A DNA stretch of 64,000 nt from assembly GCA_028710895.1 (NCBI GenBank), contig JAQTTH010000001.1, positions 62,001 through 126,000 on the forward strand, written 5' to 3'. Position 1 is the stretch's first letter; each line of letters opens with the position of its first letter. The position numbers and the translations under genes were made by a program. Positions 1-13,289 of this stretch are shown here, piece by piece. Origin of the DNA: Paludibacter sp. (GTDB taxonomy: Bacteria; Bacteroidota; Bacteroidia; Bacteroidales; Paludibacteraceae). The notes beneath the pieces are model-generated. The model made no database searches and had not been told where the DNA came from. It worked only from the letters and a program-made list of their open reading frames with translations.

Positions 1-316
1 GTGTGTTTCCACCATCGATAATGATATCACCGGCTTCCAAATGAGGAATCAGTTGCTCGATAAAATCATCAACAGCCTGACCAGCTTTTACCAACATCAT
101 CACTTTACGTGGTTTCGCCAACGAATCGCACAATTCTTTGATAGAGTGCGCACCAATGAAGTTTTTACCGGCACCGCGTCCGGCAATAAATTTGTCAACT
201 TTTTCAACCGAGCGATTGAAAACACCCACGGTAAAGCCTTTACTTTCCATGTTCAATACAAGGTTTTCGCCCATTACGGCCAACCCGATTAATCCAATGT
301 CTGCTTTTTGTTTCAT
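1..316 (-). CDS. gnd: 6-phosphogluconate dehydrogenase, N-terminal part (cut by window edge)
   Basis: This is the first 105 codons of decarboxylating 6-phosphogluconate dehydrogenase, which converts 6-phosphogluconate to ribulose 5-phosphate and CO2 in the cytoplasm. The start codon is at 316-314. The N-terminus shows the Rossmann motif GLIGLAVMG near residues 8-16, the NRS segment after the second strand, the helix-rich 'VMMLVKAG' segment and the 'IIDGGN' motif, all characteristic of Gnd. The rest lies to the left of the window. It is the last visible gene of the minus-strand hexuronate arm, about 150 bp beyond pdxB, with an inverted repeat in between. Its presence beside a LarA-type epimerase and a PfkB kinase supports the route proposed in the findings. 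Confidence 0.9.
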   Translation of the reverse strand, partial: MKQKADIGLIGLAVMGENLVLNMESKGFTVGVFNRSVEKVDKFIAGRGAGKNFIGAHSIKELCDSLAKPRKVMMLVKAGQAVDDFIEQLIPHLEAGDIIIDGGNT

Positions 317-329
317 AATTCTTTTTTTG

Positions 330-465
330 AACCACATAGGCACATAGAACACATTAGGTTCTGATATTTCTATGATTTCGTTTATTAATAATTTATTATT
401 TTATCATTTTGAACCGCATAGTACACAAAAGTATTTTTCTATGATAACTATGTACCTATGTGGTT
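330..465. repeat. Intergenic inverted repeat between gnd and pdxB
   Basis: Arms at 330-347 (AACCACATAGGCACATAG) and 448-465 (CTATGTACCTATGTGGTT) match in 17 of 18 positions across a 100-bp AT-rich centre. The right arm overlaps the last base of the pdxB stop codon. A partial further copy of the arm (GAACCGCATAG) lies near 410. It looks like a dispersed Bacteroidota intergenic repeat; no coding potential is seen. Confidence 0.7.
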
Positions 466-1589
466 TAAATTTTAAATTCTATTTGTTTTAATTTATCCAA
501 TGTTTTTTCAGCAATATTTTTCACATTGATTGTAAATGCCGGAAATTCTCTACGAGTAGGATAATCGCCACGAAGTTGCTCAAAAAGAGCCACATTCGCT
601 CTAAAATCACGATCGTCATTTCGAATATCATAGGTATGTAAAATTGCTTTCGACAAGATTTGCTGCTCAGTTAAGCCTGCTCCATCAATTCCAAAAACCG
701 GATTCAAAGGTAGTTCAACGCCTGAAGGACTCCAATCGTTCAGTCCTAATCTGAAAAAATCACTTATTGCCTGCACACTCATTAGTGTACCTGTAGCTTT
801 TCCATCTTTGGAGTAACCTGCAATATGCGGTGTCGCAATATCGGTCAGGGCTAAAAGTTCCAAATCAATATCCGGTTCGTTTTCCCAACAGTCACACACA
901 AATCCTGAGAGTTGTCCGGATTTAAGTGCTGCCTTAACCGCATTGGTTTCAATCACTTCACCCCGACAGGAGTTAATCAGCACCGGTTTCTTTTTCAGAG
1001 CACTTAAGAACGACTTATTTCCTAAATGGAAAGTAGCATCTTCGCCCTTCATATTCAACGGAACATGCAGCGTAATGATATCTGCTTCTTCCATAACCTG
1101 CTGAATAGAAACAAATTGTCCGGAACCTTCGGCACGTTCACGGGGTGGGTCGTTTCGGAGCACTTTCATGCCGAAAATCTCACAAATGCGGGCTACCTTG
1201 CTACCTACATTGCCCACTCCCACTACAGCAATCGTTTTTTCGTTCAGATTCCAGTCGTTCTTTTCAGCCAATACTATAATGGTCGAAGCAATGTATTGCT
1301 CTACCGACTTGGAATTACAGCCCGGTGCGTTGGTCCATCGAATATCATTTGCTTCGCAATAATCAGTATCGATATGGTCGAAACCAATAGTTGCTGTGGC
1401 AATAAACTTCACCGAAGAACCGGCCAGCAATTTTTCATTGCAAATGGTACGTGTGCGGGTTACAATAGCGTCCGCATCTCTGGCTATTTCCGGAGTTGTT
1501 TTTGACCCGGGTAAGTAAACCACTTCAGCAACGCCTTCGAAAGCTCCGCGAATGTATGGAATTTTATCGTCAATAATTATCTTGATCAT
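465..1589 (-). CDS. pdxB: 4-phosphoerythronate dehydrogenase
   Basis: PdxB oxidises 4-phospho-D-erythronate in the DXP-dependent pathway to pyridoxal 5'-phosphate. The 374-residue product has the D-2-hydroxyacid dehydrogenase layout: a split catalytic domain, a Rossmann domain with GVGNVG at about 124-129, the Arg-containing 'NSCRGEVIET' segment, and the catalytic His in 'TPHIAGYS'. The C-terminal extension of roughly 90 residues is typical of PdxB and separates it from simple lactate or glycerate dehydrogenases. It lies on the same strand as the hexuronate genes, but its pathway is unrelated, so it may only share transcription. It uses an ATG start. Confidence 0.88.
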   Translation of the reverse strand: MIKIIIDDKIPYIRGAFEGVAEVVYLPGSKTTPEIARDADAIVTRTRTICNEKLLAGSSVKFIATATIGFDHIDTDYCEANDIRWTNAPGCNSKSVEQYIASTIIVLAEKNDWNLNEKTIAVVGVGNVGSKVARICEIFGMKVLRNDPPRERAEGSGQFVSIQQVMEEADIITLHVPLNMKGEDATFHLGNKSFLSALKKKPVLINSCRGEVIETNAVKAALKSGQLSGFVCDCWENEPDIDLELLALTDIATPHIAGYSKDGKATGTLMSVQAISDFFRLGLNDWSPSGVELPLNPVFGIDGAGLTEQQILSKAILHTYDIRNDDRDFRANVALFEQLRGDYPTRREFPAFTINVKNIAEKTLDKLKQIEFKI

Positions 1590-1608
1590 TTACTATTTTG
1601 TCATTTAC
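1590..1608 (+). repeat. Dispersed 19-bp repeat, copy 1
   Basis: This is one copy of the family TTACTATTTnnTCATTTAC, which recurs at 4520-4538, 10939-10957, 10985-11003 (inverted) and 11028-11046 (inverted). All five copies lie in gaps of the hexuronate locus. Confidence 0.75.
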
Positions 1609-2030
1609 CATTTACTATTTGTTAGCTCAAATCATTTCTTTGATTCGGTTGAATTCAATTTCTTCTTCATTGTTGTTATTGAGCTTACAATAATTTTCAA
1701 TAATTCGTAATTTTCATTCATCAAATCTTTTAGTAAATCTTCTTTTACTAAGCCAGATTCAACTATCAATTCTAACCAATATAATGTTTCATCTAATTCT
1801 TCTTCAACCATTTTCAGTTTATTCAGGAAATCTTTATCAGATTTACCAAGACAAGCAGAACGATAATTTGCACCTGGAGAAGTCCCGGAACGGATAATCT
1901 GATTACCTAAAGTTTTGCCAGTAATATTATTAGGTAAATTCTCAGATAATTTGATAATTCTAAGAGCAAAAAATTTTAGTCTCTTTTTTAATTCATCTGT
2001 TGTCATACCCCAAATGGTAAATGGTCACTG
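1602..2030. mobile_element. Possible small mobile unit: four-helix-bundle gene inside inverted repeats
   Basis: The four-helix-bundle gene is bracketed by CATTTACCATTTACTATTTG at 1602-1621 and its inverted counterpart at 2011-2030 (CAAATGGTAAATGGTCACTG). The reverse complement of the left copy matches the right one in 17 of 20 positions. No transposase is present. This could be a non-autonomous insertion, or simply two copies of the local intergenic repeat family on either side of the gene. Confidence 0.4.
1632..2006 (-). CDS. Four-helix bundle protein (23S rRNA intervening-sequence protein family)
   Basis: The 124-residue product belongs to the small four-helix bundle family first found in intervening sequences of 23S rRNA genes and related to Avd of diversity-generating retroelements. 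The conserved stretch GTSPGANYRSACLGKS (about residues 41-56) and the following acidic helix 'FLNKLKMVEEELDETLYWL' are the family hallmark. No rRNA or reverse transcriptase is nearby, so its role here cannot be deduced. It interrupts the otherwise metabolic minus-strand gene series and is flanked by inverted copies of an AT-rich repeat, which suggests a stand-alone insertion. Confidence 0.85.
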   Translation of the reverse strand: MTTDELKKRLKFFALRIIKLSENLPNNITGKTLGNQIIRSGTSPGANYRSACLGKSDKDFLNKLKMVEEELDETLYWLELIVESGLVKEDLLKDLMNENYELLKIIVSSITTMKKKLNSTESKK

Positions 2031-2048
2031 AAAAAATGGTAAATTGAA

Positions 2049-3338
2049 TTAGTATTTGAATCTTTCTTTAAATGCCCACAAGCCCAATGCTGGATTGGAA
2101 ATATAGAAAATTTCTTCTCCGTCAGCCATGGTGTTGTAGCCATCACGTAATTTTGCCGGATCGTATTTAGCTGTTACTTCGTCAATATCGGCATACTTGA
2201 ATCCAACACTTTCAATTTCAGCCTGAGTGAGGTTTTCAGCACCTTTTCCCGGACAATACGTTACACTAAAACGACCTTCGGACGAACCATGAATAAGGTG
2301 AGCAGCAGCACTTAAGTTGTTGCGTAATTCTTCATTCTCGTCACACATTTTCAGCGTATTAGGCGTTCCTTTGTAGCCATACTTACGAATCAAACGGTCG
2401 ATTTCCTTGTCTTCGCCAAACTCTTTTAGGGCAGGTGCCAAGACAATCAACTCTCCACCATCCTCGATAGCCATACGGGTACGGTAAACGGATTTATTAC
2501 CCAACCAGGTACTTTTAAACTCTGTAGGATCGAGGTAAACAACCACTTTTTTCAACGGTTTGTCAAGCAAATCAAAATTCACCAACAATGCCAGTTTAGC
2601 TGCTTTTGTGAATACTTCATAATCATCTCCAATATACAAACCACGGCATTTAATTTTGCCATCGGTTTTATCCAAACCAACCACCGTTTGTACATAAAGA
2701 ATTGGTAGATTATTAGTAAAATTATCAGAAGCATAGTTGAAAATGCGACGTACAGGCGTGTCTGCATGACCCATCATACGTTCCATACCGTAAGCAGCAC
2801 CCACAAAGTGACTTTTATTGATACCTTCTACCCCACCCGTTCCTACAAAAATATTCTTGTTGTAGTTGGCCATTCCCACTACTTCGTGAGGAACCACCTG
2901 ACCAATGGATAGAATCAAATCAAAATTACCTTCGAGCAACAGTTTATTAACCTGAGCCGGCCATGGAAATTCCACTGCACCACCCGACACTTCTTTTACA
3001 AATTCTGCAGGCACATAACCAACTGTTACCACATCATTACGCCAGTCGTGCTCACGAATAAGTGAAGCCGGCAGCGTACCAAACATGTGCTCAATCTGAT
3101 GCGCAGTCATTGGCGAGTGTGTTCCCAGAGCAGGAAGTACATCCGTTAGAGCATCGCCATAAAATTGCCAAGTAAACTCAGTCAGTTCGCCCGAACGGCT
3201 AGGCAAACGCGTATAATCGGGAGGAATAGCGAGCACTTTGTGCTTCTTTCCTATCTTTTCCAAGGCTTCAAAAAGTCCTTTTTTCAGGTCTTCGGAAGTG
3301 AATTCAGTTTCAATTGAACCTTTTTCGTAGTATAACAT
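2049..3338 (-). CDS. larA: LarA-family nickel-dependent racemase/epimerase
   Basis: The 429-residue protein has the LarA (DUF2088) fold. Residues matching the lactate racemase active site are visible: the DYTR motif at 41-44, His74 in 'GTHSPMT', His151 in 'VPHEVVGM', Lys161 in 'YNKNIF' (the residue that tethers the nickel-pincer nucleotide in LarA) and His177 (the nickel ligand). The spacings of 10 and 16 residues between the last three equal those of LarA. It should therefore be a cofactor-bearing enzyme that racemises or epimerises a 2-hydroxyacid. Its neighbours are a sugar kinase, an SDR, a tagaturonate epimerase and gnd, so an aldonate is the likely substrate rather than lactate. The cofactor synthesis genes larB, larC and larE are not in the window. 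Confidence 0.85.
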   Translation of the reverse strand: MLYYEKGSIETEFTSEDLKKGLFEALEKIGKKHKVLAIPPDYTRLPSRSGELTEFTWQFYGDALTDVLPALGTHSPMTAHQIEHMFGTLPASLIREHDWRNDVVTVGYVPAEFVKEVSGGAVEFPWPAQVNKLLLEGNFDLILSIGQVVPHEVVGMANYNKNIFVGTGGVEGINKSHFVGAAYGMERMMGHADTPVRRIFNYASDNFTNNLPILYVQTVVGLDKTDGKIKCRGLYIGDDYEVFTKAAKLALLVNFDLLDKPLKKVVVYLDPTEFKSTWLGNKSVYRTRMAIEDGGELIVLAPALKEFGEDKEIDRLIRKYGYKGTPNTLKMCDENEELRNNLSAAAHLIHGSSEGRFSVTYCPGKGAENLTQAEIESVGFKYADIDEVTAKYDPAKLRDGYNTMADGEEIFYISNPALGLWAFKERFKY

Positions 3339-3344
3339 AGTTTG

Positions 3345-3420
3345 ATTTACGATTTTAGATTTACAATTTACGATTGGACTAACATATTTTCAACCCAATC
3401 GTAAATCGTAAACCGTAAAT
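3345..3420. repeat. Imperfect inverted repeat between larA and the kinase gene
   Basis: ATTTAC- and GATTGG-containing arms at 3345-3377 and 3395-3420 are inverted copies, with a 7-base length difference and a 17-base loop. Each arm repeats the word TTTACGATT/AATCGTAAA. It resembles the other AT-rich intergenic repeats of this locus and may fold into a hairpin in the mRNA. Confidence 0.55.
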
Positions 3421-3433
3421 TTAAAATAATAAA

Positions 3434-4510
3434 TTAGCGTTTTACGCGTGCATTTCCACCCCAGATTGACCAGATTTGATCCTCGTCGGCAGGTTGTGCG
3501 TAGTCGGTCAGGAATGTTGTTGCCAAAGCACCCGAAGCCCAACCAAACTGAGCCCATGTTTCAGGTTCCCAACCTTTCAGAATGGCATAAAGCATACCAC
3601 CCACAAATCCATCGCCACCACCAATGCGGTCGAGAACGTTGATTTTACGGGGTTGGATTACATGCCAGTCATCGCCATCGAGCATAATGGCACCCCAAAG
3701 GTGTTCGTTTGTGCTGATAACCTGACGCAATGTAGTTGCATATACCGATGCATTCGGGAATGCCTCTTTTACGCGACCAATCATACCTTTGAAGCCTTCA
3801 ATTTCAGCTTCAATACCTTTTCCACCAGCCTCTGGACCTTTAATTCCCAAACAAAGTTGGAAATCTTCCTCGTTACCAATTAAAATATCAGCAACAGAAG
3901 CAATTTCAGTAAAGATATCGCGTAATTCTTTATCGCGGCCTTTCCAGAAAGAAGCACGGTAATTCAAATCAAATGAAATACGTGTTCCTGTTTTCTTGGC
4001 ATAACGTGCTAATTGCAAGCAAAATTCGCTTGTTTCTACCGACAAAGCGCCAATTAAACCTGATAAGTGAAGAATCTGAACACCTTCTTTTACAAAGATG
4101 CGTTCCAAATCAAAATCTTTCACGTTCAACGTACGTCCAACTTCACCGGCACGGTCATTTAATACGCGTGGTCCACGTGTTCCGAAACCGCTATCAGCAA
4201 TATTAAACTGGTGACGATAACCCCATGGATCACCTTGTGGTACTTCAACACCTTCATAGTCCATGTTACGGGCACGCAGGTTACTTTTAATCATTTGTGC
4301 AATAGGACTGTCTTTTACAAAAGTAGTCAAAACTTTCACCGGAAGGCCTAAATAAGAGGCAACACTTGCCACATTTGTTTCAGCACTTGAAACTTCCATT
4401 TCAAACAATTTACTGCTGTGAACAGGCTGACCATTCACAGGAGTTATACGAACACCCATACTGGTAGCTACCATCAATGAGTATTTAAAATCTTTTTTTA
4501 ATTCTATCAT
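3434..4510 (-). CDS. PfkB-family sugar kinase (aldonate or 2-keto-3-deoxygluconate kinase)
   Basis: This is a ribokinase/PfkB-fold kinase of 358 residues. DLNYR (181-185), NEED (213-216) and the GGGD catalytic loop with Asp300 are intact. It is clearly paralogous to the kinase at 9907-10932; both share the NEED...LCLG segment, a glycine-rich insert and a C-terminal RVxR. It differs where KDG kinases carry GGxxANxA: here the segment reads SSAETNVA (41-48). That change sits in the sugar-binding region and suggests another substrate. Its position between larA and the SDR makes an aldonate such as gluconate an attractive guess. A second KDG kinase remains possible. Confidence 0.8.
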   Translation of the reverse strand: MIELKKDFKYSLMVATSMGVRITPVNGQPVHSSKLFEMEVSSAETNVASVASYLGLPVKVLTTFVKDSPIAQMIKSNLRARNMDYEGVEVPQGDPWGYRHQFNIADSGFGTRGPRVLNDRAGEVGRTLNVKDFDLERIFVKEGVQILHLSGLIGALSVETSEFCLQLARYAKKTGTRISFDLNYRASFWKGRDKELRDIFTEIASVADILIGNEEDFQLCLGIKGPEAGGKGIEAEIEGFKGMIGRVKEAFPNASVYATTLRQVISTNEHLWGAIMLDGDDWHVIQPRKINVLDRIGGGDGFVGGMLYAILKGWEPETWAQFGWASGALATTFLTDYAQPADEDQIWSIWGGNARVKR

Positions 4511-4519
4511 GATATCAAT

Positions 4520-4538
4520 TTACTATTTATTCATTTAC
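4520..4538 (+). repeat. Dispersed 19-bp repeat, copy 2
   Basis: TTACTATTTATTCATTTAC lies just upstream of the kinase start codon on the non-coding side. It matches copies 1 and 3 except at the variable centre. Confidence 0.7.
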
Positions 4539-4621
4539 GATATACCATTTTTTAAGATAATAGAACCAAGAATCAAGATTCTAATTTTTATTTTTGTTTG
4601 TTCTTGGCTCTTTGTTCTATA

Positions 4622-5434
4622 TTAGATACAGAACACATCAAAACCACCATCAATAACTGTGAGTGTTCCTGTAACAAATTTAGAGGCATCGCTGGCAAGC
4701 CAGTGGAGTGTTCCACACAATTCTTCCGGATCACCAAAACGACCAAATGGAGTATGAGAAATAATGGATTGACCACGGGCAGTTAATGATCCATCAGGAT
4801 TTGTCATTAAAGTACGGTTTTGTTCGGTTAAGAAGAAACCAGGCGCCATAGCATTTACACGCAATCCTTCACCAAACTTAGTAGCAAGTTCGGTAGCAAG
4901 GTATTTAGTAAAGTTTGTAACAGCAGCTTTTGAAGCCCCATAACCAACTACGCGTGTCAAAGGACGAATGGCAGATTCGGATGAAATATTAATAATTGAT
5001 CCTTTGTTATTTTTCACCATTTCCTTGGCAAAAATCATTGTAGGAAGAACTGTTCCAAATAAATTCAAATCAACTACTTTTTTGAATGCATCCATATCCA
5101 GATCAAAGATAGTTTTATCCGGCGGAATAGTTGCACCAGCCATATTACCTCCGGCTGCATTTACAAGAATGTCGATACCTCCAAATTCAGCAACAATTTC
5201 CTGAGATGCTATTTCAAGACTTTCTCTTTCCAAAACATCAGCACAGAAACTTTTTACAGCATAACCTTTTGCTAGCAAATCTGCTTCAAGTTTTTGTCCT
5301 GCTTCACGACAACGGTCTACAATGGCCAATTTTACACCTTGTTCGCACATATATTCCGACATGCTGCGACCTAAAATACCACCACCTCCGGTGATAACCA
5401 TTACTTTACCTTTAACATCAAAAATATTACTCAT
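4622..5434 (-). CDS. SDR-family oxidoreductase, probable fructuronate reductase (mannonate oxidoreductase)
   Basis: The 270-residue classical short-chain dehydrogenase has TGGGGILG (15-22), NAAG (92-95), the Ser152/Tyr165/Lys169 catalytic triad, and Asp40 at the end of strand 2, which favours NAD(H). Placed between the UxaE-type epimerase and a sugar kinase, it most likely reduces D-fructuronate to D-mannonate, replacing the unrelated long-chain UxuB. Related SDRs are annotated as D-mannonate oxidoreductases in Bacteroidota; the exact substrate here is inferred from context. Its N-terminal MSNIFDVKGK is typical of the family and the ATG start is well supported. Confidence 0.82.
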   Translation of the reverse strand: MSNIFDVKGKVMVITGGGGILGRSMSEYMCEQGVKLAIVDRCREAGQKLEADLLAKGYAVKSFCADVLERESLEIASQEIVAEFGGIDILVNAAGGNMAGATIPPDKTIFDLDMDAFKKVVDLNLFGTVLPTMIFAKEMVKNNKGSIINISSESAIRPLTRVVGYGASKAAVTNFTKYLATELATKFGEGLRVNAMAPGFFLTEQNRTLMTNPDGSLTARGQSIISHTPFGRFGDPEELCGTLHWLASDASKFVTGTLTVIDGGFDVFCI

Positions 5435-5456
5435 GGTATTTAATTTTTACTCCTAT

Positions 5457-5559
5457 CCCCTAAAGGAAAATAAGAGAAGTTAGTATTGATTTACCTAACC
5501 CCTAAAGATGAATAATTTTAGTTCCGAATGGTCTATATTCTTACTCCTCTTTAGGGGTT
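5457..5559. repeat. CCCCTAAAG intergenic repeat with hairpin arms
   Basis: CCCCTAAAGG occurs at 5457-5466 and AACCCCTAAAG at 5497-5507. The latter pairs perfectly with CTTTAGGGGTT at 5549-5559. The element fills most of the 142-bp gap between uxaE and the SDR gene and may be a transcribed hairpin or a dispersed repeat. Confidence 0.6.
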
Positions 5560-5576
5560 GGGGGTTATTTTGTTGT

Positions 5577-6827
5577 TTACAAATTAAATAAGCGTTTTAA
5601 ATGACGGTCGTAGATATTTTCTTCCACGCATTGTCCAACTACATCAGCATGTTTTTCAATCATTTTGATATACTTATCGCCCATTTCGTAAGCTACTTTG
5701 TAAGCTACGTGAATTAGCTGACGGAAGTTTGGATTATAATCAGGATGACCCGGAATATGACGCAATGTGTTGGCATATTTCTCGCTCGACCAAGAGTTAA
5801 CCTCTTCGATTGTAGGAAGTTCACTTGTTTTGATGTCAATTACATCGGCATAAGGAGCACACAATTCTTCGCTACGATTCAACGAATCGGCATAAATAAA
5901 TTTAGCAGCTTCCAAACCATCGTCGCCAGCAACAGCTAATCCAATCACTTCTTCCAACCAGGTTGTTCCGGCAGTTTTCAGGTGAAGACCTTTATCGTAT
6001 TTCTTGATAACGGCAGCCATAACCGGATAGATAGAGAATTTGTCGGAACCCGAGTGAATACTCAGTTTCAATTCTTCCGGCAATCCGAATTCTTTAACGG
6101 CATAATCAATAACCAATACGTCTTCTTCAAATTCTTTTGCAAATTGATCCACATCACCGGTATAATCCACACCTTTATTGAAACGACCTGTAAATTTAGG
6201 AGCAATAGTTTGAGCAGGAACACCTTTATCGGCTAACATTTTCAAAATGAATAACATTTCGATTGGAGTTTGAGGAGTTTCTACCTCGTCCATAGACACT
6301 TCTGTAATAAAGTTGCCTTTTCCTTTTTTCTCAGCCAGGAAATTGTAAATATCGGCAGCCTGTTGCGTTGCAGCTAAGAATTTATTGGCAATTTGTACCA
6401 GAAATTCGTTTGTAACAACCAATGGATGAGATATACCCGGAACATGTAAGTCACCAACATATTTACTGCAAGAAGCAACAAAAGCATCAACATCAGCTTT
6501 GGCACTTTCTTTACCGATAAATGAAGCAACGTCCAATGTAAAGAAGTCAGAAGAATCTACAAATCCTGCAACGTTACTAAAATTGATGTGGTCGGCATCC
6601 ACGAAGTATTGACCTTTGTAACCCAATGCTTTAACAGCAGCATCCGCTTCGTTGCGGGTATCCTGAGGCACAGTGTGAACATAAGTATGCTCACGGTTCG
6701 ATTTATTCCATACAATATTTATATCTAAGCCCGATTTCTCGTTTGCTTTCATGATAGCTCTTAGTTGAGCTTCGCCCTGGTGGGCAAAACGGTCACCCGT
6801 ACCAATACTAAATTTTCCTAATTTCAT
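5577..6827 (-). CDS. uxaE: Tagaturonate/fructuronate epimerase, UxaE family
   Basis: UxaE epimerises D-tagaturonate to D-fructuronate, joining galacturonate breakdown to the glucuronate branch without UxaB/UxaA. The 416-residue product starts MKLGKFSIGTGDRF and contains the family motifs DADH (77-80), EVSMDE (176-181), KFTGRFNKGVDY (211-222), HSGSDK (258-263) and the HLKTAGT segment near 282; the His and acidic residues probably bind the catalytic metal. The 32-bp gap to the upstream regulator indicates co-transcription with it. Together with UxaC, the SDR, KdgK and KdgA it forms a nearly complete hexuronate pathway. Confidence 0.85.
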   Translation of the reverse strand: MKLGKFSIGTGDRFAHQGEAQLRAIMKANEKSGLDINIVWNKSNREHTYVHTVPQDTRNEADAAVKALGYKGQYFVDADHINFSNVAGFVDSSDFFTLDVASFIGKESAKADVDAFVASCSKYVGDLHVPGISHPLVVTNEFLVQIANKFLAATQQAADIYNFLAEKKGKGNFITEVSMDEVETPQTPIEMLFILKMLADKGVPAQTIAPKFTGRFNKGVDYTGDVDQFAKEFEEDVLVIDYAVKEFGLPEELKLSIHSGSDKFSIYPVMAAVIKKYDKGLHLKTAGTTWLEEVIGLAVAGDDGLEAAKFIYADSLNRSEELCAPYADVIDIKTSELPTIEEVNSWSSEKYANTLRHIPGHPDYNPNFRQLIHVAYKVAYEMGDKYIKMIEKHADVVGQCVEENIYDRHLKRLFNL

Positions 6828-6859
6828 GATAATTAATTTAATGGTTTATTGTTGTTTTA

Positions 6860-7933
6860 TTATTCTGTAAAGTACATGTAATCTTCGATATTTTCCTTGA
6901 TTAATATATCGATAGGCACATAATTAATTTTTCTGATTTCCTGTTTAAAAATAAGTTCCCGACACATATCGCGTACGGTAAAATAGGCTTGCTTATCTGG
7001 TCTTTGAGCAATGAGATAAGAAACCACATCCTGTTTCAGGTAACTAATGTTTTTTTCCAGCAAGTCATAACCAATCAAACGTACATCGGCATGATCTAAC
7101 GCAGCTAAATGCATAGCAAGTCTATACACCTTTGAATTAAAGGTAATTGCTCCTTTGATATTTGTATATGTATTAAATTTCTCTTTCAGGGTTTGCAAAT
7201 TTGCATTTTCATCATCGTTATTAAGCTCTACATTAATGAGTTCAAACTTTTCCTGAAGATTAAACTCATTTATATATTGCATAAAGCCCTTATTACGAGC
7301 TAATGTTTGATTGGAGGCAGATCCTTTACGATGTGTACGAATAACCAAAATCTGAGCTTTCTCTGACAACTCGGAGAGCAACAATTTCGCTGCAATGTAT
7401 CCGCTCTTGAAAGAATTCTGTCCATAGTAGGTTAGAAAATCAACATCATCAATCTGTGAATCGATGAATGAAAATGGAATATCCCGTTTTGTCAATTCGT
7501 TAGTGAATTCGATTGTTTCCTCTCTGAAAATAGGTGAAAGAGCTACAGCATCGGGTTCTGAGCTCAAAACCTCATTTGATACAGCTATAAATGAGTTGGA
7601 ATCAAATTGATTAAACCAACGCTTTTCAACATGTACATTGTGGTGTATAAAATCGATTGCTGCCAAATCAAAACCTTTATCTACATTTTCCCAATATTCA
7701 CCGGGTTGGTGCATTGGATAAAGACAAACAAAACGATATTGTTTCTTGGAAGCTAACGAGCGGGCAAATAAATTAGGGGTATAATTCATTTCCTCAAGAA
7801 CCTTTGTTACAGCCAATTTGCTCTTTTCGGACACATCGCCACGTTGGTGCAGTACACGGTCAACCGTACCTTCCGACACACCCGCTAATTCGGCTATATC
7901 TTTAATTCTTATTTTGGGATTAATTTCTCTCAT
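6860..7933 (-). CDS. LacI-family transcriptional regulator of the hexuronate locus
   Basis: The product is a LacI/GalR-type repressor of about 357 residues. I place the start at 7933, where MREINPKIRIKDIAELAGVS begins; the longer reading adds 35 residues with no family resemblance. The helix-turn-helix lies at about residues 10-30 (IKDIAELAGVSEGTVDRVL), followed by the hinge 'NYTPNLFARSLASKK' and a periplasmic-binding-protein-like sensor domain. It is the first gene of the minus-strand arm and faces uxaC. Two CG-centred palindromes at 7955-7966 and 8027-8038 are candidate operators for autoregulation and divergent control. The effector is probably a hexuronate or pathway intermediate, by inference from context. 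Confidence 0.88.
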   Translation of the reverse strand: MREINPKIRIKDIAELAGVSEGTVDRVLHQRGDVSEKSKLAVTKVLEEMNYTPNLFARSLASKKQYRFVCLYPMHQPGEYWENVDKGFDLAAIDFIHHNVHVEKRWFNQFDSNSFIAVSNEVLSSEPDAVALSPIFREETIEFTNELTKRDIPFSFIDSQIDDVDFLTYYGQNSFKSGYIAAKLLLSELSEKAQILVIRTHRKGSASNQTLARNKGFMQYINEFNLQEKFELINVELNNDDENANLQTLKEKFNTYTNIKGAITFNSKVYRLAMHLAALDHADVRLIGYDLLEKNISYLKQDVVSYLIAQRPDKQAYFTVRDMCRELIFKQEIRKINYVPIDILIKENIEDYMYFTE

Positions 7934-7954
7934 TTCAACATAAACAATAATTCC

Positions 7955-7966
7955 GTGTTCGCACAC
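7955..7966. promoter_or_regulatory. Candidate LacI-family operator O1
   Basis: GTGTTCGCACAC is a CG-centred palindrome with one mismatched pair. It lies just downstream of the predicted regulator promoter, where a bound repressor would block transcription. The ten bases CCGTGTTCGC (7953-7962) recur inverted at 8031-8040. Confidence 0.5.
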
Positions 7967-7981
7967 AAAAATAATTTGACA

Positions 7982-7989
7982 CAAAAGTA
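7982..7989 (-). promoter_or_regulatory. -7 box of the regulator/uxaE transcript
   Basis: On the minus strand this reads TACTTTTG, matching the Bacteroidota TAnnTTTG element, about 50 bp before the regulator start codon. A good -33 TTTG is not seen at the right spacing. Confidence 0.5.
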
Positions 7990-8026
7990 GTACATATTTC
8001 GTAAATATAAAATTATTCGTATCTTC

Positions 8027-8038
8027 GTGGGCGAACAC
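8027..8038. promoter_or_regulatory. Candidate LacI-family operator O2
   Basis: GTGGGCGAACAC is CG-centred with GTG/CAC arms. Ten bases overlapping it, GCGAACACGG (8031-8040), are an exact inverted copy of 7953-7962 near O1. The two sites are 72 bp centre to centre, which would permit looping by a tetramer or two dimers. Confidence 0.45.
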
Positions 8039-8283
8039 GGAGGGCAGAAACGACTGAATAAAAATATATTAAAACATTGTATTTTAAATAGATAGATACT
8101 TGCTTACGATTTTACCGATTTGCAATACATCGAAAAACATATTCAAAAACATATATTCAGGCATAAAGTTCAGCAAAAAAACAATGTTTTGGGGATTTAT
8201 TTATACTTAAAATCAATTAAATCCACAGCTCAATATAGTTAAATACGAAATCAAAAATTCAGAAACAGATAAATAGTACGATC

Positions 8284-9690
8284 ATGAAAAACTTCTTAGA
8301 CGAAAATTTTCTTCTTCAAACCGAAACGGCTCAAAAACTCTATCACGAGCATGCAGCCAAAAAATCAATTATTGATTATCACTGTCATTTAATTCCGTCG
8401 ATGGTTGCAAACGACCACCAATTCAAATCACTTACCGAAGCATGGTTAGGTGGCGATCACTATAAATGGCGTGCCATGCGTACCAATGGCGTTGACGAAC
8501 GTTTTTGTACCGGAAAAGACACATCAGACTGGGAGAAATTCGAAAAATGGGCCGAAACTGTTCCGCATACTATGCGTAACCCATTATATCACTGGACCCA
8601 TTTGGAATTGAAAACTGCTTTTGGTGTTGAAAAATTACTTTCACCCAAAACAGCCCGTGAAATTTACGAAGAATGTACAGCAAAACTTCAAACTCCTGAA
8701 TTTTCGGCCCGCAACCTGATGCGTCATTACAAAGTGGAAGCAGTTTGTACTACCGATGACCCAATCGACACATTGGAACATCATATTAAAACCCGTCAGG
8801 ATGGTTTCGAAGTAAAAATGCTCCCAACATGGCGTCCGGATAAAGCTATGGCCGTAGAAAGCTCAGCTAATTTCCGCGACTATGTAGAGCAACTGGCTAA
8901 AATTTCTGAAGTAACTATTTCGTCTTTCGACGATATGATTCTGGCTCTTCGCAAACGTCAGGATTTCTTTGCCGAACAAGGTTGTAAATTATCTGACCAC
9001 GGAATTGAAGAATTCTATGCAGAAGATTATACCGAAGCTGAAATCAAAGCCATCTTCAATAAGGTATACGGCGGACAAGAATTAGCACATAGCGAAGTGT
9101 TGAAATTCAAATCGGCCATGATGGTTATTTTTGCTGAAATGGATTGGGAAAAAGGTTGGACGCAACAATTCCACTACGGAGCAATTCGTAATAACAATAC
9201 CCGTTTATTCAATCAATTAGGTGCAGATACTGGTTTTGATTCAATTGGAACATTCAATACAGCTAAAGCAATGTCGAAATTCCTTAACAGACTTGATACA
9301 AATAATAAGCTGGCTAAGACCATATTATACAACCTGAATCCAGCTGATAATGAAATGATTGCCACTATGATTGGTAACTTCCAGGACGGAACCGTACCGG
9401 GCAAAATTCAGTTTGGTTCGGGATGGTGGTTCCTCGATCAAAAAGATGGTATGGAAAAACAAATGAATTCACTTTCGGTACTTGGTTTATTAAGCCGTTT
9501 TGTAGGTATGTTGACAGATTCGCGCAGCTTCTTGTCGTATCCACGTCACGAATATTTCCGTCGCACACTTTGTAACCTGATTGGTAACGATGTGGAAATG
9601 GGATTACTTCCACACCAGGAAATGGAATTTATTGGCAAAATGGTTGAAGATATCAGCTACAATAATGCTAAAAACTTCTTTAAATTTTGA
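8284..9690 (+). CDS. uxaC: Glucuronate/galacturonate isomerase
   Basis: UxaC isomerises D-glucuronate to D-fructuronate and D-galacturonate to D-tagaturonate, the first step of hexuronate breakdown. The 468-residue length is normal. The amidohydrolase-type metal motif HCH is at 33-35 ('DYHCHL'), followed by the family stretch 'WLGGDHYKWRAMR'. The family-typical 'TDDP' and 'QFHYGAIRNNN' segments and the C-terminal 'SRSFLSYPRHEYFRR' are present. It is transcribed divergently from the regulator and ends at a hairpin terminator, so it is probably a single-gene transcript, separate from the kdgK operon. Confidence 0.95.
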   Translation: MKNFLDENFLLQTETAQKLYHEHAAKKSIIDYHCHLIPSMVANDHQFKSLTEAWLGGDHYKWRAMRTNGVDERFCTGKDTSDWEKFEKWAETVPHTMRNPLYHWTHLELKTAFGVEKLLSPKTAREIYEECTAKLQTPEFSARNLMRHYKVEAVCTTDDPIDTLEHHIKTRQDGFEVKMLPTWRPDKAMAVESSANFRDYVEQLAKISEVTISSFDDMILALRKRQDFFAEQGCKLSDHGIEEFYAEDYTEAEIKAIFNKVYGGQELAHSEVLKFKSAMMVIFAEMDWEKGWTQQFHYGAIRNNNTRLFNQLGADTGFDSIGTFNTAKAMSKFLNRLDTNNKLAKTILYNLNPADNEMIATMIGNFQDGTVPGKIQFGSGWWFLDQKDGMEKQMNSLSVLGLLSRFVGMLTDSRSFLSYPRHEYFRRTLCNLIGNDVEMGLLPHQEMEFIGKMVEDISYNNAKNFFKF

Positions 9691-9906: not shown

Positions 9907-10932
9907 ATGAGTAAAAAAATTGTAACATTAGGAGAAATTATGCTCCGTCTATCAACTCCAGGCAACACGCGTTTTGTTCAATCGGATGTATTTGATGTTG
10001 TTTATGGAGGAGGAGAAGCAAATGTTGCTGTGAGCTGTGCGAACTACGGCCACGAAGCTTATTTTGTATCAAAATTACCGAAACACGAAATCGGACAATC
10101 TGCCGTAAATGCTTTGCGCAAATATGGAGTAAAAACTGATTTTATTGCCCGTGGTGGCGACCGTGTGGGTATTTACTATCTCGAAACCGGAGCTTCAATG
10201 CGTCCAAGTAAGGTTATTTATGACCGTGCCCACTCATCAATTGCAGAAGCTACGGCTTCAGATTTTGATTTTGATGCCATCATGAAAGGAGCCGATTGGT
10301 TTCACTGGTCGGGAATTACACCTGCTATTTCGGATAGTGCTGCAGAATTGACCAAATTAGCTTGCGAAGCTGCAAAACGCAACGGTGTCACTGTTTCTGT
10401 AGATTTGAACTTCCGCAAAAAACTTTGGACAAAAGAAAAAGCTCAATCTATCATGCGTCCATTGATGCAATACGTAGATGTTTGTATCGGTAACGAAGAA
10501 GATGCTGAACTTTGCTTAGGATTTAAACCTGACTCAGATGTTGAAGGCGGACATACAGACGCAGAAGGCTACAAAGGCATTTTTACTCAAATGGCTCAGG
10601 AATTTGATTTCAAATATGTAATTTCAACTTTACGCGAATCATTCTCAGCAACCCACAATGGCTGGAAAGCTATGATTTATGACGGAACAGAATTCTACAC
10701 TTCAAAACGCTACGATATTGATCCAATTATCGACCGTGTTGGTGGTGGTGATTCATTCTCAGGGGGTGTAATCCACGGATTATTGACCAAGCCAAACCAA
10801 GGTGAGGCTTTGGAATTTGCTGTAGCAGCTTCGGCATTGAAACATACTGTAAACGGTGACTTTAACCTTGTATCTATCGAGGAGGTAGAAGCATTATGCG
10901 GAGGTGATTCAAGCGGACGCGTACAAAGATAA
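9907..10932 (+). CDS. kdgK: 2-keto-3-deoxygluconate kinase (PfkB family)
   Basis: KdgK phosphorylates 2-keto-3-deoxy-D-gluconate to KDPG. The 341-residue protein has the sugar-binding segment YGGGEANVA (33-41), DLNFR (166-170), NEED (196-199) and the GGGD anion-hole/catalytic loop with Asp282. It is followed by the KDPG aldolase gene on the same strand after 122 bp, which supports the assignment. It is the better KDG kinase candidate of the two paralogues in the window because it keeps the GGxxANxA motif. The promoter and a palindromic operator lie immediately upstream. Confidence 0.87.
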   Translation: MSKKIVTLGEIMLRLSTPGNTRFVQSDVFDVVYGGGEANVAVSCANYGHEAYFVSKLPKHEIGQSAVNALRKYGVKTDFIARGGDRVGIYYLETGASMRPSKVIYDRAHSSIAEATASDFDFDAIMKGADWFHWSGITPAISDSAAELTKLACEAAKRNGVTVSVDLNFRKKLWTKEKAQSIMRPLMQYVDVCIGNEEDAELCLGFKPDSDVEGGHTDAEGYKGIFTQMAQEFDFKYVISTLRESFSATHNGWKAMIYDGTEFYTSKRYDIDPIIDRVGGGDSFSGGVIHGLLTKPNQGEALEFAVAASALKHTVNGDFNLVSIEEVEALCGGDSSGRVQR

Positions 10933-11054: not shown

Positions 11055-11720
11055 ATGCGTTTCTCAAAAATTCAGGTAATGACAGCTATGAAGGAAACAG
11101 GTATGGTTCCTGTATTCTACAATAGCGATATTGAAGTAGCAAAAAAAGTAGTAAAAGCTTGTTACGAAGGTGGTGTTCGTGCATTTGAGTTCACCAACCG
11201 TGGTGATTTTGCACACGAAGTATTTCGCGACCTTGTAAAATATGCAACCAAAGAATGCCCCGAAATGATTATGGGTATTGGTTCTATTGTTGACGCTCCA
11301 ACTGCTACACTTTACATTCAAATGGGTGCTAACTTTATTGTTGGACCGCTTTTCAATCCGGAAGTAGCTAAAGTAGCTAACCGTCGTCTGATTCCTTATG
11401 CACCGGGTTGTGGCTCTGTGTCGGAAGTTGGATTTGCTCAGGAAGCAGGTTGCGACATCTGTAAAGTATTCCCGGGCGATGTACTCGGTGCAGCTTTTGT
11501 GAAAAATCTGAAAGCACCAATGCCATGGTCGAACCTAATGGTTACCGGCGGTGTGAAACCAGAAGAAGCTAACCTGAAAACATGGTTCGATGCTGGTGTA
11601 ACTTGTGTGGGTATGGGTTCAAACCTTTTACCTGCAGATATGATGAAAGCCGGCGACTGGGCGGGTATTACCAAATTGTGTAGCGACGCGCTTGCAATTG
11701 TTCAAAAAGTACGTAAATAA
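11055..11720 (+). CDS. kdgA: KDPG (2-keto-3-deoxy-6-phosphogluconate) aldolase
   Basis: This aldolase cleaves KDPG to pyruvate and glyceraldehyde 3-phosphate and may also act on 4-hydroxy-2-oxoglutarate. The 221-residue protein has Glu45 in 'RAFEFTNRG', corresponding to the catalytic Glu45 of E. coli Eda, and the Schiff-base lysine at 137 in 'CKVFPGD'. The usual PGVxTPTE segment reads PGCGSVSEV, a variant I associate with Bacteroidota homologues. The gene lies in the kdgK operon, with a three-copy repeat before it and the transporter gene 30 bp after it. Confidence 0.92.
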
Positions 11721-11750: not shown

Positions 11751-13289
11751 ATGTCACAATCAACTGCTGAAAAAATGACCGGTTATCGCTGGACCATTAT
11801 CAGTTTACTTCTGTTTTCGACGACAGTAAACTATATGGACCGTAACGTAATTGGGTATCTCAAGGATTATTTTTGTTCTTCCACCGGTTTCGGTTGGTCG
11901 GCTACCGATTTTTCTATTTTAACCTCTGTATTTACTGCTTTCTACGCAGGATTTACACTTTTTGCCGGATTTATCATTGATAAAATCGGTACAAAGATTG
12001 GACTTGCTGCTTCACTCATAGTTTGGTCTGTTGCTGGTGCCGCAAGTGCTTTTATGGGAAAAAGCGTATTAGGACAAGTTGCAGCACGTGGCCTTTTTGG
12101 AGCCGGTGAATCAGGTAACTTCCCTGCATCTATTAAAACTGTTGCTGAATGGTTCCCGAAGAAAGAGCGTGCATTAGCTACGGGGATTTTCAACTCCGGG
12201 TCTAATATTGGTGCCATGATTTGTGCATTAATTATTCCTGTAATTTTAGCAGAATGGAATCCTAACGAAGGAAACGGCTTGTTCTTGGGCATTTTCCACG
12301 GTTGGCAAATGGCATTTATCATTACCGGTGTTGTAGGCTTTATCTGGCTGATTTTCTGGAGTAAATTATATGCAACTCCAAAACAAATGCTTTCTAAAGG
12401 CAAAATCAGTCAAAGCGAATATGATTATATCCATAGTGACGATGAAGCAGCTCCGGTTGTTGATCCAACCGCTCCGGCAGTAAAAGTTCCATGGTATAAA
12501 ATGTTGACATACAAACAAACATGGGCATTTGTGGCCGGCAAGTTTATGACTGACGGTATCTGGTGGTTCTTGTTGTTCTGGTTGCCAACTTATATCAAAC
12601 AACAATTCTGCGACGGCATGAGTCCGATTGAAACTAAGCATACAGTTATGTACTCTACTTTTGTGGTGTACGGTATTGCAATCATTGGTTCAATCTACGG
12701 TGGTTCTATTCCAATGACCTTTATGAATAAAGGCTGGCAAACCTATAAAGCTCGTATGACGGCGCTTTTGCTTATTGCATTCTTCCCACTATTGTTATTA
12801 GGGACTCAATATGCAGCCAGTTTTGGTTTAATAGCAGCTGTTGCCATCATTAGTATTGGAGGTGCAGCTCATCAGGCATGGTCAGCTAACCTGTTTACAA
12901 CTGTATCGGATATGTTCCCTAAAAAAGCTGTTGGTTCAGTTACCGGCGTAGGAGCTGCTGCTGGTGGTTTAGGTGGTGTTTTAGTACAATTGTTTGCAGG
13001 AGGTATGGAAGATAAATTTCGTATTCAGGGAGTTATGGAAGCCAGCAAAGCCGGCTTAATTAAAGCTACAAATCTGATTCCACTTGACAAGGTAAAAATT
13101 GATAACCTCAAAGAAGTATTGGTTGATCCAAACAATACTGAATTGTATATACAGGCAAAACATATGATTGCGACTAATGTTTCCATAGCATATGGAATCA
13201 TGTTCTCTGTTTGTTCATTGGCTTACCTTATTGCCTGGGCAATTATGAAATCTCTTGTTCCAAGACATAAACCAATAACCGATTTATAA
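11751..13289 (+). CDS. MFS transporter, probable hexuronate importer
   Basis: The 512-residue inner-membrane protein belongs to the anion:cation symporter branch of the major facilitator superfamily (ExuT/GudP type). The N-terminus 'RWTIISLLLFSTTVNYMDR' and the motif 'GESGNFPASIKTVAEWFP' are characteristic of ExuT relatives. About twelve hydrophobic segments are visible, with a long central loop near 215-245 and an extra hydrophilic insertion of about 60 residues before the last helix. It lies 30 bp after kdgA and ends at a strong terminator. Its likely cargo is galacturonate or glucuronate released from pectin. Confidence 0.9.
   Translation: MSQSTAEKMTGYRWTIISLLLFSTTVNYMDRNVIGYLKDYFCSSTGFGWSATDFSILTSVFTAFYAGFTLFAGFIIDKIGTKIGLAASLIVWSVAGAASAFMGKSVLGQVAARGLFGAGESGNFPASIKTVAEWFPKKERALATGIFNSGSNIGAMICALIIPVILAEWNPNEGNGLFLGIFHGWQMAFIITGVVGFIWLIFWSKLYATPKQMLSKGKISQSEYDYIHSDDEAAPVVDPTAPAVKVPWYKMLTYKQTWAFVAGKFMTDGIWWFLLFWLPTYIKQQFCDGMSPIETKHTVMYSTFVVYGIAIIGSIYGGSIPMTFMNKGWQTYKARMTALLLIAFFPLLLLGTQYAASFGLIAAVAIISIGGAAHQAWSANLFTTVSDMFPKKAVGSVTGVGAAAGGLGGVLVQLFAGGMEDKFRIQGVMEASKAGLIKATNLIPLDKVKIDNLKEVLVDPNNTELYIQAKHMIATNVSIAYGIMFSVCSLAYLIAWAIMKSLVPRHKPITDL

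Follow-up and report, generated by a model that had tools for sequence, protein, structure and literature searches.

A putative D-mannonate/D-gluconate epimerase of the LarA superfamily in a Bacteroidota hexuronate locus, and its occurrence in genomes with no recognisable larB, larC or larE

We analysed a 64,000-nucleotide window of a Paludibacter sp. genome (assembly GCA_028710895.1, contig JAQTTH010000001.1, positions 62,001 to 126,000), one end of which holds a hexuronate locus that includes a gene for a homologue of LarA. We judge it likely that this locus serves galacturonate and glucuronate catabolism, and that it encodes the known GntE route, in a form with a PfkB kinase, beside the UxuA branch. 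The uronate isomerase UxaC, the tagaturonate epimerase UxaE and a short-chain dehydrogenase/reductase (SDR) would produce D-mannonate, which could then leave by two exits: in one, UxuA (encoded on another contig) would be followed by 2-keto-3-deoxygluconate (KDG) kinase and 2-keto-3-deoxy-6-phosphogluconate (KDPG) aldolase; in the other, the LarA homologue would invert C2 to give D-gluconate, the adjacent PfkB kinase would form 6-phosphogluconate, and Gnd would convert the latter to ribulose 5-phosphate, CO2 and NADPH. The reverse order, kinase then epimerase via 6-phosphomannonate, is also conceivable. A second key observation is that neither this genome nor most of the near-complete Bacteroidota genomes sampled that carry such a LarA has a recognisable larB, larC or larE, the products of which form the described route to the nickel-pincer nucleotide (NPN; PMC11796402 and other papers, cited here, as is all literature, from excerpts). 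As we read it, the pathway would carry over to many Bacteroidota a proposal made for Thermotoga, though with another kinase. Of greater weight than the pathway is the cofactor gap, which would indicate either that community members exchange the cofactor or that some of its biosynthetic enzymes have escaped recognition.

The LarA homologue and its proposed pathway

The LarA homologue (positions 2049–3338, minus strand) matches the NCBIfam family NF052594, "nickel-dependent putative hexonate epimerase", with 653.5 bits against a cut-off of 500 and over residues 11–422 (i.e., full-length); its Pfam match, to Lar_N (PF09861), is weak at 29.7 bits. NF052594, by its name NPN_18, corresponds to LarA group 18 of PMC7583248, and the window protein itself shows no difference from that group. 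The core residues that the initial annotation had picked out (His74, His151, Lys161 and His177) are all present, and are invariant both in the 22 group members that we aligned and in a larger set of 72 sequences. The spacings of 10 and 16 between the last three match those of L. plantarum LarA, for which we take the lysine and the final histidine to be K184 and H200. H108 and H174 of the L. plantarum enzyme are named in PMC11770544, and in the same excerpts GntEs are described as usually having E, V, A and H at four specificity positions. This signature is present in the window protein: E152 and V153 directly follow His151, and A346 and H347 were placed by sequence alignment, not by residue-level structural superposition. 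All four of these positions, together with H74, H151, K161, H177 and K282, are identical in 72/72 aligned LarA sequences, 28 of them from larC-bearing genomes and 44 from genomes without a larC match.

The nearest solved structure is 4nar, the T. maritima protein Q9WYS3, which is both the best PDB sequence match (129.7 bits) and the best Foldseek hit (E 3.2e-25) of an AlphaFold2 model with a mean pLDDT of 84.4; after 4nar, the search returned lactate and malate racemases, with 5huq_A at E 2.1e-12. In sequence alignments, the four core residues find counterparts of the same kind in 4nar and, in a weak match (E 0.43), in 2yjg. We infer that 4nar is GntE2, as PMC7583248 mentions a D-gluconate epimerase apoprotein structure. 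From its family, signature and nearest relatives, the window LarA is predicted to invert C2 of D-mannonate, giving D-gluconate; the excerpts of PMC7583248 describe this epimerisation as demonstrated for members of groups 19 and 20.

Profile searches of the window's open reading frames (ORFs) with Pfam and NCBIfam also confirmed the minus-strand order of the initial annotation: regulator, uxaE, SDR, PfkB kinase, larA, four-helix gene, pdxB, gnd. UxaE (5577–6827) matches PF16257 with 185.9 bits; the SDR (4622–5434), a predicted fructuronate reductase, matches NF006132, "D-mannonate oxidoreductase", with 358.7 bits against a cut-off of 281; and the PfkB-family kinase (3434–4510; PF00294), which we propose to be a gluconate (or mannonate) kinase, lies directly upstream of larA and reaches no NCBIfam family above cut-off. 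Only the N-terminus of the 6-phosphogluconate dehydrogenase Gnd falls inside the window (2–352; TIGR00873, 142.4 bits for the cut piece); followed in the genome past the window edge, it is a 496-aa ORF without a stop. Three genes on the plus strand belong to the same scheme, namely UxaC (8284–9690; PF02614, 669 bits), a second PfkB-family kinase that is KDG-kinase-like, with no NCBIfam equivalog above cut-off (9907–10932), and KDPG aldolase (11055–11720; NF005499, 378.9 bits, cut-off 275). The genome also has zwf, for which the initial annotation had suggested a search, and pgl. In keeping with a role for the PfkB kinase, the search of the genome for an FGGY gluconokinase did not return one, the best matches reaching 148 and 140 bits against a gntK_FGGY cut-off of 648 (a P-loop GntK was not searched for); the four FGGY kinases present resemble glpK, xylB, rhaB and araB (glycerol kinase, xylulokinase, rhamnulokinase and ribulokinase).

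The initial annotation knew of no described route of this form. That part of its claim has to be given up: mannonate-to-gluconate epimerisation followed by gluconokinase and 6-phosphogluconate dehydrogenase was proposed for T. maritima by Rodionova in 2012 (cited via PMC7583248 and PMC6978723), and T. maritima GntE2 was assayed in PMC7583248. The window locus shares with the Thermotoga GntE2/LarAH20 system a hexuronate context in which an epimerase of the LarA superfamily lies close to a sugar kinase, as well as the predicted chemistry, and it has uxaE and gnd in the same cluster, as in a Thermotoga-type route. It differs in that T. maritima GntE2 belongs to LarA group 20 whereas the window protein belongs to group 18 (about 26% identity in the Foldseek alignment), in that a PfkB kinase stands where the Thermotoga route uses GntK, and in that the T. 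maritima genome is positive for larC. We take that GntK to be of the FGGY kind. A further relative is the pathway of Lactobacillus suebicus, in which, in the excerpts of PMC6978723, the isomerase route is likewise joined at mannonate to 6-phosphogluconate and 6-phosphogluconate dehydrogenase; it differs in the order of kinase and epimerase, and those excerpts do not name the enzyme behind its epimerase activity.

We examined the neighbourhood in the best 80 of at least 584 LarA relatives among assembly contigs. The titles of these 80 place most of them in Bacteroidota and some in Ignavibacteria, Planctomycetota, Verrucomicrobiota and Lentisphaerae. The closest of these 80 by LarA identity are metagenome-assembled genomes (MAGs) titled Bacteroidetes bacterium (96%), Porphyromonas sp. 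(92%) and Paludibacter sp. (91% and 90%). Counting as a neighbour any gene on the same strand within 5 kb of larA, and using the 117-aa N-terminus as the gnd query, we found an SDR at 62 of the 80 loci, gnd at 55, a PfkB kinase at 54, LacI at 31, pdxB at 29, uxaE at 21, the four-helix gene at nine and uxuA at eight. Many of these loci are cut by contig ends; restricting the count to the 42 with 5 kb or more of sequence on each flank gives 38 for the SDR, 37 for gnd, 33 for the PfkB kinase, 20 each for pdxB and LacI, and five each for uxuA and the four-helix gene. Where uxuA is near larA, both branches sit side by side. The counts therefore describe a core of SDR, PfkB kinase, larA and gnd, with uxaE often elsewhere: of the larA–uxaE–gnd neighbourhood, which the initial annotation had proposed to check for recurrence, the larA–gnd pairing recurs and the uxaE part does so far less often.

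Several observations weigh against the pathway as we propose it. In the excerpts of PMC7583248, hexonate epimerisation is only hypothesised for group 18. At the 42 loci with full flanks, uxaE lies on the same strand within 5 kb in only 13. Among the nearest solved relatives of the adjacent kinase (4gm6 and 2afb, the latter a KDG kinase; 107–111 bits) there are KDG kinases but no gluconokinase. The initial annotation had, moreover, placed its bypass in a hexuronate locus without UxuA, and for the genome as a whole this does not hold: it (99.95% complete, 41 contigs) has a single PF03786 match, a full uxuA (380.3 bits) that adjoins a second SDR on another contig. The LarA branch is therefore not obligatory, and at most a parallel one. 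This genome also encodes the canonical UxuA/KdgK/KDPG aldolase branch, whose end products are pyruvate and glyceraldehyde 3-phosphate and which yields no NADPH through Gnd. As for the window itself, the statement that it holds no mannonate dehydratase stands for the UxuA family; the enolase-superfamily type lay outside the search. Finally, no larC was found in the genome by TIGR00299 and PF01969 profile searches; LarE searches gave six matches of 21–32 bits against a cut-off of 150, and none with a LarE protein query; and the only LarB match, of 34.6 bits, is to a PurE-sized 170-aa ORF. What remains of the bypass is backed by a curated hexonate-epimerase family, the GntE signature and the recurring SDR, PfkB kinase and gnd; its novelty and the premise of a genome without UxuA are gone, and the cofactor genes expected with it were not found.

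LarA carriers with and without larB, larC and larE

The initial annotation had named absence of the lar cofactor genes among the findings that would tell against its proposal. Bearing in mind that the same absence turned up in many carriers with a well-conserved LarA, simple loss of LarA function is an unlikely reading of it. Among 395 Bacteroidota genomes, 22 have an NF052594 match above cut-off, and these are 98–100% complete; one genome with only a 45-aa LarA fragment (G326) was left out of the carriers, and 18 others have weaker LarA-superfamily matches. Altogether 41 genomes were searched for larC (TIGR00299), LarB and LarE, the last two with query proteins from a locus (L134) whose LarB, LarC and LarE each exceed the NCBIfam cut-offs; larC control searches were positive in T. 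maritima and C. glutamicum. The three genes are concordant, genome by genome, in 41/41: 14 genomes have all three and 27 were counted as having none. In 19 of the 27, the LarB query gave 19.5–34.6 bits in PurE-sized ORFs of 163–191 aa (PurE and LarB have the AIRC domain in common; one match lies in a 1058-aa frame), and in two the LarE query gave about 20 bits in ORFs of 515–547 aa. One LarE frame (G345) and one larC frame (G200) hold a single stop each, and both genomes were counted as gene-bearing.

Seven of the 22 group-18 carriers have larB, larC and larE, and 15 have none. The latter span 11 genera and four coded families, although 11 of the 15 fall in a single family (f18) and so are not independent; three (G124, G188 and G302) are single-contig genomes. 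PF01969 exceeds its cut-off in 23 of the 395 genomes, that is, in 7/22 carriers as against 16/373 others (Fisher p 8e-5, ignoring relatedness), and seven of those 16 non-carriers have a weaker LarA match. There is thus an association between NPN synthesis and the presence of a group-18 LarA, and yet most of the carriers sampled are without such synthesis. The excerpts of PMC7583248 do not mention this absence. Within the open-licence literature, as excerpted, we found no description of larA-bearing genomes that lack larB, larC and larE, which is not proof that there is none; the puzzle stated in PMC11796402 runs the opposite way (i.e., genomes with these three genes and no larA).

A second sample agrees with the first, although it alone would prove little, as it consists mostly of MAGs with completeness not stated. 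It comprised 50 of the 80 named-record genomes of the relatives, searched for PF01969: 21 have a match (three of them only to a short LarC1-like protein) and 29 do not. Draconibacterium aestuarii Z1-6 is without a match, and Mariniphaga sediminis SY21 has one. Both classes share the main neighbours of larA: the counts are 18 of the 21 larC-bearing and 27 of the 29 larC-less loci for the SDR, and correspondingly 18 and 25 for gnd, 15 and 27 for the PfkB kinase, 12 and 12 for LacI, 10 and 17 for pdxB, and 5 and 13 for uxaE. On a LarA tree (quick maximum likelihood, midpoint root, 24 open forks, with branch support from the Shimodaira–Hasegawa-like approximate likelihood ratio test, SH-aLRT, only), the larC label requires at least 11 changes, six of them forced by branches starred in that tree, versus 22 in shuffles; genes missed in incomplete MAGs would inflate this count, and the three short-LarC genomes were scored as larC-bearing, which makes the larC-less class smaller. 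With the reserve about incomplete MAGs, it seems that the enzyme stayed the same while cofactor synthesis came or went on several occasions. Comparison of the window larA with those of six larC-less relatives gave ratios of nonsynonymous to synonymous substitution (dN/dS) of 0.031–0.052, which are rough as dS is 1.1–2.3 (two more pairs were dS-saturated); these low values are signs of purifying selection on larA in larC-less carriers.

If the function assigned to the epimerase is right, we think it somewhat probable that the enzyme still uses NPN, and that this genome obtains it without LarB, LarC and LarE, by uptake or through unrecognised enzymes. The wider form of this idea we advance tentatively, at slightly less than even chances: many Bacteroidota may use an NPN-dependent sugar-acid epimerase without NPN made by LarB, LarC and LarE, relying either on a vitamin-like metabolite (or precursor) shared by neighbours or on a second, unrecognised route. 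A replacement gene next to larA was sought by clustering the ORFs of the same 50 loci (21 larC-bearing, 29 larC-less), which gave 16 families present in at least five loci. No family found in more than six loci is enriched at the larC-less ones; two small families (six and five loci) occur only there. Enriched at the larC-bearing loci are an MFS-like transporter (10/21 versus 2/29) and KDPG aldolase (8/21 versus 3/29). Such clusters may merge paralogues, and the neighbour counts above were therefore taken from separate per-gene tallies.

Some variation in the cofactor genes themselves was also seen. In two larC-bearing genomes (L131 and L134), a compact larE-larC-larB cluster stands after a gene that by inspection resembles nikR; in L134 a possible nickel transporter, likewise so named by inspection, adjoins it. 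In a Paludibacter-like MAG (G397), larC is divided between two overlapping frames (L147, L152). This split is reminiscent of the larC1/larC2 arrangement in Lactobacillus. The three genomes with a group-18 larA and only a short LarC1-like protein are two of Carboxylicivirga and one Marinilabiliaceae MAG (L149, L150 and L151), with open frames of 268–284 aa; in L149 the protein is 265 aa (ORF 1105–1902), has no LarC2 match, and has no larB or larE beside it. A short LarC of this type was considered for the window genome and dismissed, no PF01969 match being found there. Fifteen of the 41 genomes hold more distant LarA homologues, which score 149–189 bits against NF052594. In the eight of these that belong to one coded family (f39; L034, L035, L037, L038 and others), no larB, larC or larE was found, and five of the eight carry a second, weak LarA match; the four core residues are retained by all seven distant members that we aligned, of which four are from f39.

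Alternative explanations

The finding that 15 of 22 near-complete carriers are without all three NPN genes could also mean that LarA in such genomes is independent of NPN, doing the same job with another hydride-accepting cofactor (e.g., a pyridine nucleotide) or by different chemistry. The sharing of the main neighbours by both classes, and the signs of purifying selection, would fit this. We nevertheless regard it as unlikely: a changed cofactor would be expected to free from constraint at least the residues that tether NPN and ligate nickel, but K161 (the tether), H177 (the nickel ligand) and the two catalytic histidines are invariant in the 44 larC-less and 28 larC-bearing sequences alike. 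The two classes are, moreover, interleaved on the tree, so that a class-specific chemistry would need repeated change. A different possibility, to which we also assign a low probability, is that the epimerase stands mostly unloaded here, as an apoprotein, with mannonate passing through UxuA and larA a passenger that pays off only occasionally. The presence elsewhere in the genome of uxuA with its own SDR is in keeping with this, as are the failure to find NPN genes there and the closeness of larC-bearing and larC-less carriers on the tree, as if cofactor synthesis were easily lost; a rarely used gene, on the other hand, would hardly be expected to show the conserved residues and the low dN/dS seen in larC-less carriers.

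Might the cofactor genes be present and have been missed? Draft assemblies are involved, and profile searches can overlook divergent homologues: the C. glutamicum control was negative with the Lar_N profile, though a LarA homologue of that species was assayed in PMC7583248, and three relatives showed only the short LarC1-like protein. An artefact of assembly or search is nonetheless very improbable in view of the 98–100% completeness of the 15 genomes, of which three are single contigs, of the positive larC controls, and of the agreement between larB, larC and larE in every genome searched. The remaining alternative concerns the order of steps: the kinase may act first, as a mannonate kinase, and LarA second, as a 6-phosphomannonate 2-epimerase. 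Extracts of L. suebicus showed both activities when assayed, phosphorylation coming first (PMC6978723), and the position of the kinase gene ahead of larA would suit such an order. On the other hand, the L. suebicus epimerase has no name in the excerpts of that paper, and unphosphorylated D-mannonate is a substrate of T. maritima GntE2, of P. nicotianae LarAH15 and, though with a very high KM, of C. glutamicum GntE1 (PMC7583248, PMC11770544); we consider a kinase-first order improbable, and favour epimerisation followed by phosphorylation.

The regulator and the remaining genes

Between uxaC and the gene for the LacI-type regulator (6860–8038, minus strand; PF00356, PF13407) are two operator-like palindromes, both of the GTGTNCGNACAC type: GTGTTCGCACAC at 7955–7966 and, 72 bases from it, GTGGGCGAACAC at 8027–8038. 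Paired similar sites 68–72 bases apart occur at the start of the lacI homologue in nine of the 12 relatives scanned, with one site in two and none in one. By itself, the degenerate pattern is not significant in the window (three found, 0.93 expected; 8 of 100 shuffles reach three), so that only position and recurrence in relatives support the palindrome. The listed GTG start of the regulator ORF sits inside such a palindrome, and the true start is probably the ATG at 7933. Promoter-like sites are at chance level in the window (25 found versus 26.7 in shuffles). A scan of the uxuA locus (L002) gave no match to the lacI/uxaC palindrome at up to two mismatches and a single three-mismatch site at 3022, which is not upstream of uxuA; the idea that uxuA shares its regulation with the window locus was set aside on this basis.

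The ORF at 11751–13289 on the plus strand, after KDPG aldolase, presumably encodes an MFS-type, ExuT-like transporter, to judge from its position. On the minus strand, pdxB (465–1589) encodes a 4-phosphoerythronate dehydrogenase (NF001309, 442.9 bits, cut-off 434). Between it and larA lies a gene for a four-helix-bundle (23S rRNA IVP-type) protein (1632–2006; TIGR02436, 87.6 bits), which is probably incidental to the locus: some relatives have it, on one side of larA or the other, but most do not, as if it were an optional insert.

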